Assembly: GCA_018396995.1 (NCBI GenBank)
Contig: JAGTQB010000003.1
Span: 32,455-96,454, forward strand
Length of the DNA: 64,000 nt
Reading direction: 5' to 3'
DNA from: Candidatus Bathyarchaeota archaeon
GTDB taxonomy: Archaea; Thermoproteota; Bathyarchaeia; Bathyarchaeales; DTEX01
In this document: positions 935-43,239 of the stretch, piece after piece
Numbering within the stretch: the first letter of the stretch is position 1
Layout of the letters: every line of letters starts with the position of its first letter
The notes under the pieces: model-generated
Told to the model about the DNA's origin: nothing
Seen by the model: only the letters and a program-made list of their open reading frames with translations
Database searches by the model: none
Made by a program: the position numbers and the translations under genes

Positions 935-1248
935 AGGGGGTTGGTGTGCTGGCCGTAACCCGCCTTCTGTTTTAGGCGGCATTCAGCTAAACGGGCTACC
1001 CGCGCCTCACACAGCACTCATAGGCGCCTACTTGCCCTTTCACCCCGCGGGACGGCCGTTTCACCGTCTCCACCAAACCTACTCAGCGACTTAGCACGCC
1101 GCATCGTCACAGGCTTGGTGGACGTTCCGTTTCTGTTCCGGAGCCGGGGCTCTCGCCCCGCGCCTTGCGGCGCCGCGGCCCTGTATGGTGGGCGGAGTTT
1201 CCTCAGGCCTAATGGGCCCGAGAGCCGCCCGCCAGCTCACCAACCCCC
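935..1248 (-). ncRNA. rnpB: RNase P RNA
   Basis: Reverse complement contains the conserved GAGGAAACTCCGCCCAC, ACAGAAAC, GGTGAAACGGCC…GGGTGAAAGGGCAAGTAGGC and GCTGAATGCCGCCTAAAACAGAAGGCGGGTTAC blocks; ends pair (GGGGTTGGT…ACCAACCCCC). Confidence 0.93.
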
Positions 1249-1287: not shown

Positions 1288-3513
1288 CTAGTATGTGGCT
1301 AGAGTGTATCTCGTTTCCCCTCGAATGAATCTGCTTAGTGAGCTTGTTGAGCCGCATGACGGGCATTTTGGCTGTGTTCCGCGGAATGTTCTTCTACAGT
1401 TACTGCAGTAGGTCAGTGTTGTATCAAAAGTGTAGAGGGGTATTTTGTATTTGCCAACTATTTTCTTTGCTATTGATAGTAGTTCATCTGGACTGCTATC
1501 GCCTATGGGTATCTTAACGAGGCTGCTCCTCGATAAATGCTGATATATTTTCTCATGTATGCTGAGGCGTTTTTCAATAGGGATTTCGGTACTGTTTAAT
1601 GCAATGTTCAAGTCGCTGTAGTATGGTTTGTCTCTGCTCCCGCTGATGCGTACCCCGGACAATCCATAGCGCTCTATATCTAATGTGGCCATTCTCCTGG
1701 ACGTCTCAATGCTCGGTGTATGGGATAATGCGCAACGCATCTCTTTAACAATAGAGTGCTCTCCAATAATCTTCAACGAGTATGAGAGGACATCTTCAAT
1801 GAACGTTAAAGGCTCGCTCCCTTCATAAATTGCGCTATTCATGACGGATTGAGCAACCTCGTTAAGCCCGACAAAACTCACAAGGAATAATAAGTTATCA
1901 AACCTGCAGTATGGATCCCTTCTACCGCCATATGAGAGGAGTGGGAGGAGCCCCTCATTAACCCGGTGCTTTATAGTCAAATATTTTATTTCTAGAGCAC
2001 GGAGAGCCTTCTCCATGAAGTCATACAGGTTTTCTAAGAAAGCCTTTCTATTGCCTTTGGCTTCATAGAGGGCCCTTGGCAAATTAATCGTGACGCTGCC
2101 AGCGCATCCAACCCTAATTATATCCAGTTCCCAATCTCTCCTCCAATCGTCTACGAACATATGTCCGGATGCAAGGTGGGATGATCTCTCAACCTCCTCG
2201 GAGAATATGTTTGCAAAGTATGGAAGGCCATTTACAGCGAGTTTATGCGCCTCGTAAAGTATGTCCTCCAGCTCTCCGGAGTTCAATGCTGTTCTCTCAA
2301 CCCTAATTATTAGGCTTGGGTTGAAGATGGGTCTTGTTACACATATTTCGTTAAAAGTCTCAAGCATTAAGAGAGCCAGAGTGCGGCTCTCTTCTATGAA
2401 ATCCTCATATGTTCCCACAGTTTTACCTCCTGGAACAATAGACCCACTGTGAACCAGGAACTCTGGAATTTCTAGGCTGATACCAAAGGAAACTCCTGTG
2501 GAAACAGTCAAATTAGTTGAGATAATGAAGTTTTTGAGGGTATTTTTAACCTCCTCTCTGGGTAAACCCTTGATGAAGGGTGCCAGAAATATGTTAAAGA
2601 AGTCTATGCCTTGCTCCTGTGATATCTCCGTGGAGGAAATTTTTAAGACGTTTAATATGAGGTTTAGTGCTCCGTTGAAGCTCTCTGGCGGATGGATTAT
2701 GGCATAGTCGGACGTTTGCTCCTTAAAGATTAAACCATTCTTGAAGAAGAACCTTGCGTCGTGCATGAAGCTACTCAGCTTTAGAATCCAGTAGCCAAGA
2801 TCATCAAGGTTAAGTGAACCGGAGAGGTGTGAGTCAGCCACATCCCTTGGAAGAATATTTAGAAGGACATATTCCTCGATGACACGTTTCCCGGCAGCAG
2901 CTATTATTGCCTCAACGTTCAGGGATGCTGCACCCATGGACTTTATCAATTGCGTGACATCATATACTGGCAAGCCTAAGCGCGTCAACTTATGCCTATA
3001 TTCCTCCAACCCTCGTTCAATCAATATTGCATTTACAAACTCCCTTATCAGCGGCGCAGTCAAATATTTTGTGTCCAGCTTCGATATCCTCTCCTCTGTT
3101 TCACGAGCTATTTTTTGCGCCAAGTCTAGTGGAACATTAGCTTCTCTAACAAGAGAATCCACAATCTTGTTCCTATCAAAATATTCTATTGCTAGGCGGG
3201 ATGTTCTCACAAGCATCCTCTTTTTGGATGTGCTCTCCTCAAGGCGCATGACAAAATCTATAACTGATTTTCCTAGATCCGTCAACTTATACTTCTTTGT
3301 TTCAGGATCGGGCTCTATTAAATCCATGTTTAAGAGGACTTTAAGGTGATATGCGAACCTGCCAGCATCTTTACTTGGGCTCATTTTCAAATTATTCATT
3401 ATCTCCGTGTAGGAGAGGGAGCCCCTATCAAGCAGTAACCTAAGTATACCTAGCCTTATGCTGGAGGAGACTGCCTTAAGCACTCTTTCACTAAGCTTCT
3501 TTCTCGAGGGCAA
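1288..3513 (-). CDS. HTH + ATP-cone + anaerobic ribonucleotide reductase (NrdD)-like protein, apparently lacking catalytic motifs
   Basis: N-term winged HTH (GILRLLLDRGSLSYTEIMNNL), ATP-cone-like segment (RTSRLAIEYFDRNKIVDSLVREANV…REFVNAILIERG), NrdD-like core (SQEQGIDFFNIFLAPF; GCAGSVTINLPRAL), C-term CxxC…CPSCG zinc motif. Confidence 0.8.
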   Translation of the reverse strand: MPSRKKLSERVLKAVSSSIRLGILRLLLDRGSLSYTEIMNNLKMSPSKDAGRFAYHLKVLLNMDLIEPDPETKKYKLTDLGKSVIDFVMRLEESTSKKRMLVRTSRLAIEYFDRNKIVDSLVREANVPLDLAQKIARETEERISKLDTKYLTAPLIREFVNAILIERGLEEYRHKLTRLGLPVYDVTQLIKSMGAASLNVEAIIAAAGKRVIEEYVLLNILPRDVADSHLSGSLNLDDLGYWILKLSSFMHDARFFFKNGLIFKEQTSDYAIIHPPESFNGALNLILNVLKISSTEISQEQGIDFFNIFLAPFIKGLPREEVKNTLKNFIISTNLTVSTGVSFGISLEIPEFLVHSGSIVPGGKTVGTYEDFIEESRTLALLMLETFNEICVTRPIFNPSLIIRVERTALNSGELEDILYEAHKLAVNGLPYFANIFSEEVERSSHLASGHMFVDDWRRDWELDIIRVGCAGSVTINLPRALYEAKGNRKAFLENLYDFMEKALRALEIKYLTIKHRVNEGLLPLLSYGGRRDPYCRFDNLLFLVSFVGLNEVAQSVMNSAIYEGSEPLTFIEDVLSYSLKIIGEHSIVKEMRCALSHTPSIETSRRMATLDIERYGLSGVRISGSRDKPYYSDLNIALNSTEIPIEKRLSIHEKIYQHLSRSSLVKIPIGDSSPDELLSIAKKIVGKYKIPLYTFDTTLTYCSNCRRTFRGTQPKCPSCGSTSSLSRFIRGETRYTLATY

Positions 3514-3611: not shown

Positions 3612-4235
3612 TCAGACTTTTAAAGCCTTTATTAGAGTAATGGTTTCAAAAAATAGCCTCCGTCTACACGTAATCTCAACCTTAAAGTCCCTTTCCTCAA
3701 GCAATTTAATTGTCTTCTCTATGTCTGAAAGGGATGATTGAACCATTAGAAGTCTCCCCCCACAATCTAAATACCTCGGGAGATCCATCAGAAACCTGTC
3801 TATAACACGTCTCCCATCAGCCCCGCCAGCCCACGCATACTCAATCCAAGTTTTAGGCTCCTCCTCGCTGGGGAGATACGGTGGGTTAAAGAGAATCAGA
3901 GTGAATCGAAGACCAGTCCTAAGCGGGTCAAAAAGATTCCCACAAATGAAGTCAATTTTATTACGAACGCTGTTCCTCTTAGCGTTCTCCTTAGCGCACT
4001 TAACTGCCTGCGGATTTATGTCAACCGCCACTACAAATGAGGCCTTAAGTGCGGATAAGACTGATAGTATGCCGCAGCCAGTCCCCATATCTAAAACAAT
4101 ATCACCCTCACAAACATCTAAGTTATCAGCCAGAAGAAAGGTATCCTCAGCAGGCTCATAAACACCATCGAAAACATAAAACCTCAAACCACCATAAACA
4201 ACCTCCTTCAAACCATTAACCAAAGTAACCCCCAA
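3612..4235 (-). CDS. HemK2/PrmC-family class I SAM-dependent methyltransferase
   Basis: VLDMGTGCGILSV SAM motif and FNPPYLPSEEE (NPPY) catalytic motif, N-term YEPAEDTFLL. Confidence 0.85.
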   Translation of the reverse strand: MGVTLVNGLKEVVYGGLRFYVFDGVYEPAEDTFLLADNLDVCEGDIVLDMGTGCGILSVLSALKASFVVAVDINPQAVKCAKENAKRNSVRNKIDFICGNLFDPLRTGLRFTLILFNPPYLPSEEEPKTWIEYAWAGGADGRRVIDRFLMDLPRYLDCGGRLLMVQSSLSDIEKTIKLLEERDFKVEITCRRRLFFETITLIKALKV

Positions 4236-42906: not shown

Positions 42907-43239
42907 GGACGGCGGGTCTTAGGCGGGGGGCTAGGGGTCCCCTGAGAGGCAAACGGCCTCGACCGCAAACCCCCTATACGGCGGGCCGAAAGCCGGGGTG
43001 AGGCGCGTAAGGCCGCTGGCCCAGCCATCCTTAAGCAATGAATACCTGTCCCCTGGGGCTAGCGGTCGCGGAGCACCCTTCGTAGGAGGGGTGTAACCGC
43101 GTTTGCCGGGCGAACCTGGCCAGGCCCGGGAGGGAGCAACCTAAGCCCGGACGCTTAGTGCTCAGGGGGTGCGGGTATGAGTGGCGGGCTGGCTTGGGTC
43201 TGCGGATTCTGCGTGTCGAGCCTCGGTGACCCGCCGTCC
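42907..43239 (+). ncRNA. ffs: Signal recognition particle RNA
   Basis: Ends pair (GGACGGCGGGTC…GACCCGCCGTCC); helix 8-like GCCGGGCGAACCTGGCCAGGCCCGGGAGGGAGCAACC. Confidence 0.92.

Follow-up and report, generated by a model that had tools for sequence, protein, structure and literature searches.

A class III reductase-like protein with an N-terminal winged HTH domain

The window analyzed here is a 64,000-nucleotide stretch of contig JAGTQB010000003.1 (positions 32,455 to 96,454; assembly GCA_018396995.1) from a Candidatus Bathyarchaeota archaeon, which among named genomes is closest to Ca. Bathyarchaeota MAGs. It codes for a protein combining a winged helix-turn-helix (wHTH) domain, an ATP-cone, and a body related to NrdD, the class III ribonucleotide reductase (RNR), which we term HTH-NrdD (Table 1). 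The open reading frame lies exactly where the original prediction placed it, and all the motifs quoted there are present. The gene is flanked on its own strand by a methyltransferase-like ORF directly upstream and an archaeal RNase P RNA directly downstream, and an archaeal SRP RNA is also found in the window.

Table 1. Features of the HTH-NrdD gene and other elements noted in the window
Feature	Window coordinates	Strand	Basis or remark
HTH-ATP-cone-NrdD protein	1288..3513	-	741 aa, TTG start
ArsR/SmtB-like winged HTH, residues 10-88 (predicted DNA-binding domain)	3250..3486	-	Pfam DUF7347/HTH_5, Foldseek
Modified ATP-cone, residues 101-176	2986..3213	-	Pfam, conservation, cone alignment, Foldseek
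NrdD (class III RNR) body, residues 200-728, catalytic residues missing	1330..2916	-	Pfam PF13597, Foldseek
Finger-loop region of active site, residues 443-456 (RSSHLASGHMFVDD), thiyl-radical CC motif missing	2146..2187	-	
Zinc site C703/C706...C717/C720	1354..1407	-	All four Cys kept in 130/131 aligned HTH members (pattern count)
C-terminal tail, residues 725-741, glycyl-radical motif missing	1291..1341	-	
Methyltransferase-like ORF	3612-4235	-	207 aa
Archaeal RNase P RNA	944-1240	-	231.5 bits
Archaeal SRP RNA	42910-43236	+	160.4 bits

Each of the three parts is recovered by Pfam above cut-off: DUF7347 and HTH_5 at residues 10-88 (the latter at 27.3 bits; cut-off 22), the ATP-cone at residues 101-172 (27.2 bits; cut-off 25.8), and NRDD (PF13597) at residues 200-728 (191.8 bits; cut-off 26.2). 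Among the NCBIfam models, the NrdD equivalog TIGR02487 gives the protein 197 bits, well below its cut-off of 326, and the ArsR/SmtB metalloregulator model NF033788 gives it 27.9, below its cut-off of 55; the NrdR model TIGR00244 is not among its NCBIfam matches. An AlphaFold model built with 20 relatives attained a mean pLDDT of 85.8, and, when the whole model was compared with the PDB by Foldseek, the first 36 matches were class III NrdD structures (best, 9d3x at 8.5e-26), with 4coj and 1hk8 also among the matches to the body. The N-terminal 200 residues modeled alone (mean pLDDT 80.3) matched the NrdR structures 9a6n, 9fvr, and 7p37 as well as the ArsR/SmtB proteins CzrA, HlyU, CadC, and BigR (TM(target) of about 0.7-0.77; rmsd of about 2.0-2.8 A), in every case with E-values above 0.001. 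This predicted N-terminal fold is consistent and agrees with Pfam, and as evidence it is weak. The proposed architecture of a winged HTH, an ATP-cone-like segment, and an NrdD-like body with an intact four-cysteine C-terminal zinc site is thus upheld, the first two by Pfam with weak Foldseek matches to ArsR/SmtB proteins and NrdR, respectively, and the third by both methods.

Loss of the catalytic residues

The active site was compared in an alignment of 153 proteins comprising HTH members and catalytic NrdDs; the positions given for HTH-NrdD rest on this alignment and not on superposed model coordinates. The catalytic NrdDs display CC at the thiyl position, a Cys at the second active-site position (which we take to be C79 of T4 NrdD), and a glycyl motif of the form VTGYY or VVGY, and in this alignment all three are absent from every HTH member. 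The window protein has SSHLASGHMF where the catalytic NrdDs have CC, and its glycyl-radical position reads RFIRGETRYTLATY-stop. The loss of the MCCRL-type cysteines and of the glycyl-radical motif, which had been predicted for this one protein, therefore extends to all HTH members. Two of them, L059 and L070, possess a single Cys in the loop region, with neither CC nor a glycyl motif. The f18 proteins lack even the finger loop and terminate at the zinc site, and in many HTH members the chain stops right after that site. By pattern count, RVxGY is matched by 16 of 17 catalytic NrdDs. The 131 HTH members counted had been selected by their RTS motif and missing glycyl motif, so that the count of zero for the latter and of 131/131 for RTS merely restates the selection. 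Separately, two HTH-NrdD relatives from family f24 (L054 and L063) lack most of the C-terminal tail along with the cysteines of the zinc site.

These losses bear on whether the protein could be a catalytically active RNR with unusual chemistry centered on an alternative radical site. In favor of this reading, the protein retains NLPR and a number of barrel residues. However, both Cys residues and the Gly are lost in all members, many of the proteins terminate directly behind the zinc site, those of the ammonia oxidizers have no finger loop, and the host already owns both NrdDG and NrdJ. An ordinary NrdD is encoded on its contig 8 beside a radical-SAM nrdG-like ORF and a single class II NrdJ on its contig 2, and no NrdG gene adjoins the HTH-NrdD gene among the ORFs of the window. 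We accordingly regard residual catalysis as highly improbable. HTH-NrdD is neither NrdR nor a working NrdD; it is a catalytically dead relative of NrdD that has gained a wHTH.

A modified ATP-cone

Conservation within the protein is highest in the ATP-cone (mean of 0.75, against 0.61 for the HTH and 0.47 for the NrdD body), which departs from the usual form by displaying VRTSR in place of VxKRDG. In Escherichia coli NrdR the nucleotide-contact residues are V51, K53, E59, and K65, of which K53 is the Lys that contacts both nucleotides (PMC12176259). Alignment with the cones of NrdR, NrdD, and NrdJ shows that V51, E59, and K65 are kept as V102, E110, and K116 in HTH-NrdD, that the K53 position is occupied by Thr104 in the window protein, this Thr being itself conserved, and that the last helix usual in ATP-cones is shortened or missing. 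The domain inferred in the original prediction is thus confirmed by Pfam, but, because the K53 position is a Thr and the last helix is missing, the sensing of ATP and dATP typical of other ATP-cones cannot be assumed for it. Judging from sequence, the cone probably still serves as a ligand-binding or contact surface, and its ligand may differ from that of NrdR.

Phyletic distribution and RNR complement

The phylum was sampled with 398 genomes, of which 284 gave matches to HTH-NrdD at a threshold of 1e-10 and about 236 have a best match at or below 1e-40; the latter figure is approximate, as a few catalytic NrdDs without an HTH also reach this value. Nearly all members sampled from that range carry the HTH and the ATP-cone, and all three domains (HTH, ATP-cone, and NRDD) are present in 20 of 20 diverse relatives scanned. 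A single branch with 100/99 support parts 29 HTH members from 13 catalytic NrdDs in our tree. Sequence, structural model, and phylogeny hence concur with the earlier description of a non-catalytic, HTH-fused derivative of NrdD. A viral scan returned one relative, aligned over residues 96-724 only and hence without the HTH. The same data dispose of the idea that the gene is a degenerating pseudogene or an assembly artifact: the loss of catalytic residues is all that could be said for it, and it is refuted by the conservation of hundreds of open, full-length copies, some of them in single-contig genomes, and by the fact that conservation is strongest in the ATP-cone and the HTH. We give it practically no credence.

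At G006:C17:8048-12727, a single 1580-aa open frame shows three separate NrdD match pieces, the pattern expected for intein insertions.

The only ATP-cones in the host genome are those of the ordinary NrdD, NrdJ, and HTH-NrdD. Searches with TIGR00244 recovered no NrdR from this genome, from the rest of its family, or from the ammonia oxidizers; NrdR has been described as rare in archaea (PMC9110341). The two proteins are nevertheless not mutually exclusive, since Bathyarchaeia family f2 carries both. Many genomes of the phylum (G016:C8, G069:C67, G230:C3, G062:C1, and others) also contain open frames, about 92-115 aa long, whose match to NrdR is limited to its ATP-cone (approximately positions 47-124), and it is possible that these are stand-alone ATP-cone proteins.

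We term the members of f18, f50, and f47 ammonia oxidizers on the basis of amoA. The amoA gene was found in 14 genomes, and in all 14 HTH-NrdD is the sole NRDD-domain match above cut-off; one has an additional weak NRDD stretch of 59 positions, which falls below it. The retention of the enzyme body in aerobes without a class III RNR is a strong argument for a non-enzymatic role.

Gene neighborhoods

We compared 140 loci, in 133 of which an HTH member could be recognized; some of them are duplicate entries of the same genome, and some contigs break off before a judgment is possible. In 44 of the 133 loci the HTH-NrdD gene is followed on its own strand by RNR genes no more than 0.9 kb away, and in none of the 133 were RNR genes found upstream or on the opposite strand. 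The downstream genes encode NrdD of three types (A, B, and C, the last being the kind that the window genome itself possesses) or NrdJ with and without an ATP-cone, and at the type B loci a gene for an NrdH-like redoxin is placed in between. At locus L086, where the HTH-NrdD gene is followed by NrdD of another type, a shortened, apparently truncated nrdH-like frame stands between the two. A survey of homologs for neighboring RNR genes, which had been proposed as a check, thus yields the linkage in relatives but not in the window's own genus, where neither the downstream RNR nor the convergent pyrB arrangement was seen.

That second arrangement raises the question of whether HTH-NrdD might be a nucleotide-sensing regulator aimed mainly at pyrimidine or other metabolism, as the pyrBI neighborhood could suggest, and not at RNR. 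Indeed, pyrB adjoins the HTH-NrdD gene in about half of the loci, mostly those of Bathyarchaeia family f2. However, in nearly all such cases the two genes are convergent (tail to tail) and have no common promoter, the co-oriented adjacent downstream gene of known nucleotide function is that of an RNR, and inherited gene order offers a simpler reading of the pyrB association. We therefore set pyrB aside as a target on account of its convergent orientation, and a principal role outside RNR control is unlikely.

Candidate operators

Inverted repeats were identified near these genes in two lineages and are candidate operators only; no binding data are available. Both consensus sequences were derived from the loci where they are reported, and one is AT-rich. 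In the f18 ammonia oxidizers, the dyad GGTGTCAATA-n-TATTGAACC is found upstream of nrdJ in 25 of 25 loci, with 12-17 of its 17 fixed positions matched. A scan of 11 ammonia-oxidizer genomes and one other genome placed its exact form at nrdJ in 10 genomes, with only two exact matches elsewhere, and once a single mismatch is allowed in the same scan the counts equal those of the control. No copy was found upstream of the HTH-NrdD gene of the ammonia oxidizers themselves, and the dyad does not recur at the RNR gaps of Bathyarchaeia. The Bathyarchaeia dyad, TATACAAAATTTTATACA, is different; it is confined almost entirely to the gaps between HTH-NrdD and RNR genes, with at most one further site at up to two mismatches in each f4 genome. 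A box resembling it is kept at L086, though the NrdD downstream is of another type.

In the genome of the window, the one TATACAAAATTTTATACA match, with two mismatches on contig C11, equals the control count and is ascribed to chance. Promoter footprinting across the window's family identified a conserved nrdD promoter box, TCTAA..TTTTTGATAATTAAATTTAAATTTTTGTA, and no operator common to the nrdD, nrdJ, and HTH-NrdD promoters.

These dyads also help in weighing a further alternative, namely that HTH-NrdD is a non-catalytic NrdD-like subunit that regulates RNR as a protein by binding NrdD or NrdJ, with its HTH acting on its own gene only. Such a role would accord with a body that has the full NrdD fold, with the dimeric nature of NrdD enzymes, which makes mixed dimers conceivable, and with the adjacency of RNR genes in many relatives. 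Against it, the wHTH is kept in all members, the gene adjoins class III NrdD in some relatives and class II NrdJ in others, and conserved dyads precede the RNR genes. We judge regulation at the protein level to be unlikely.

Functional inference and general considerations

We consider it likely that HTH-NrdD is a nucleotide-responsive transcription regulator of RNR genes and an archaeal functional analog of NrdR, with DNA binding, the ligand, and the sign of regulation all being inferred. The original prediction of a repurposed reductase acting as a dNTP-responsive, DNA-binding regulator is at this inferential level supported by the RNR linkage, the dyads, the lack of NrdR in the host, and the retention of the protein in ammonia oxidizers. 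Given that the gene directly precedes those of working reductases in many archaea, this one not included, HTH-NrdD is probably a switch that fits the supply of DNA precursors to demand.

As to mechanism, the predicted fold would allow HTH-NrdD to dimerize through the NrdD body and the ArsR-like wHTH, and the paired wHTH domains would then bind a dyad operator just upstream of an RNR promoter (that of nrdD, nrdH-nrdD, or nrdJ). The gene order and the dyads are observed, the binding is inferred, and in many lineages the presumed RNR target is simply the next gene. A nucleotide at the modified ATP-cone would change the conformation of the protein and hence its DNA binding, possibly with a contribution to sensing from allosteric or substrate pockets that the inactive body has retained, and RNR expression would be lowered when dNTPs are plentiful. 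In the organism of the window, HTH-NrdD would have to act in trans on nrdDG and nrdJ, as these candidate targets are unlinked to it.

Comparison with known systems brings out what is shared and what is distinctive. Like NrdR, HTH-NrdD joins a DNA-binding domain to an ATP-cone, and in both the genomic association extends to more than one RNR class. In contrast to NrdR, it has an ArsR-type wHTH instead of a Zn-ribbon, VRTSR instead of VxKRDG, a cone without the last helix, and a whole dead NrdD body attached, and it occurs in archaea where NrdR is mostly absent. With class III NrdD (Thermotoga maritima, S. thermophilus, P. copri, and T4) it shares the fold, the zinc site, NLPR, and the N-terminal ATP-cone, and it differs in lacking the thiyl Cys, the second Cys, and the glycyl motif and in the added N-terminal wHTH. 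The wHTH fold is held in common with ArsR/SmtB repressors such as CzrA, CadC, and HlyU, whereas the remainder, ATP-cone plus NrdD body, is not. The class II NrdJ of ammonia oxidizers, encoded by a neighboring gene, likewise has an ATP-cone; unlike HTH-NrdD, it is a catalytic RNR and its cone is of the standard KRDG type.

Our search of open papers found no description of the HTH-NrdD family; subscription papers and ortholog databases such as arCOG lay outside it. On a more speculative note, it is quite conceivable, though we would stop short of asserting it, that early in this phylum a whole RNR was converted into a transcription factor that senses nucleotides through its former reductase pockets and ATP-cone and that controls class II and class III RNRs in place of NrdR in Bathyarchaeia, ammonia oxidizers, and their relatives. 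How dNTP supply is controlled in archaea without NrdR is an open question, for which this family provides a concrete candidate, spanning a large part of one archaeal phylum, ammonia oxidizers included, with defined target genes and candidate operators. If true, it would clearly exemplify how an essential metabolic enzyme can come to regulate its own catalytic kin as well as a different RNR class, NrdJ.
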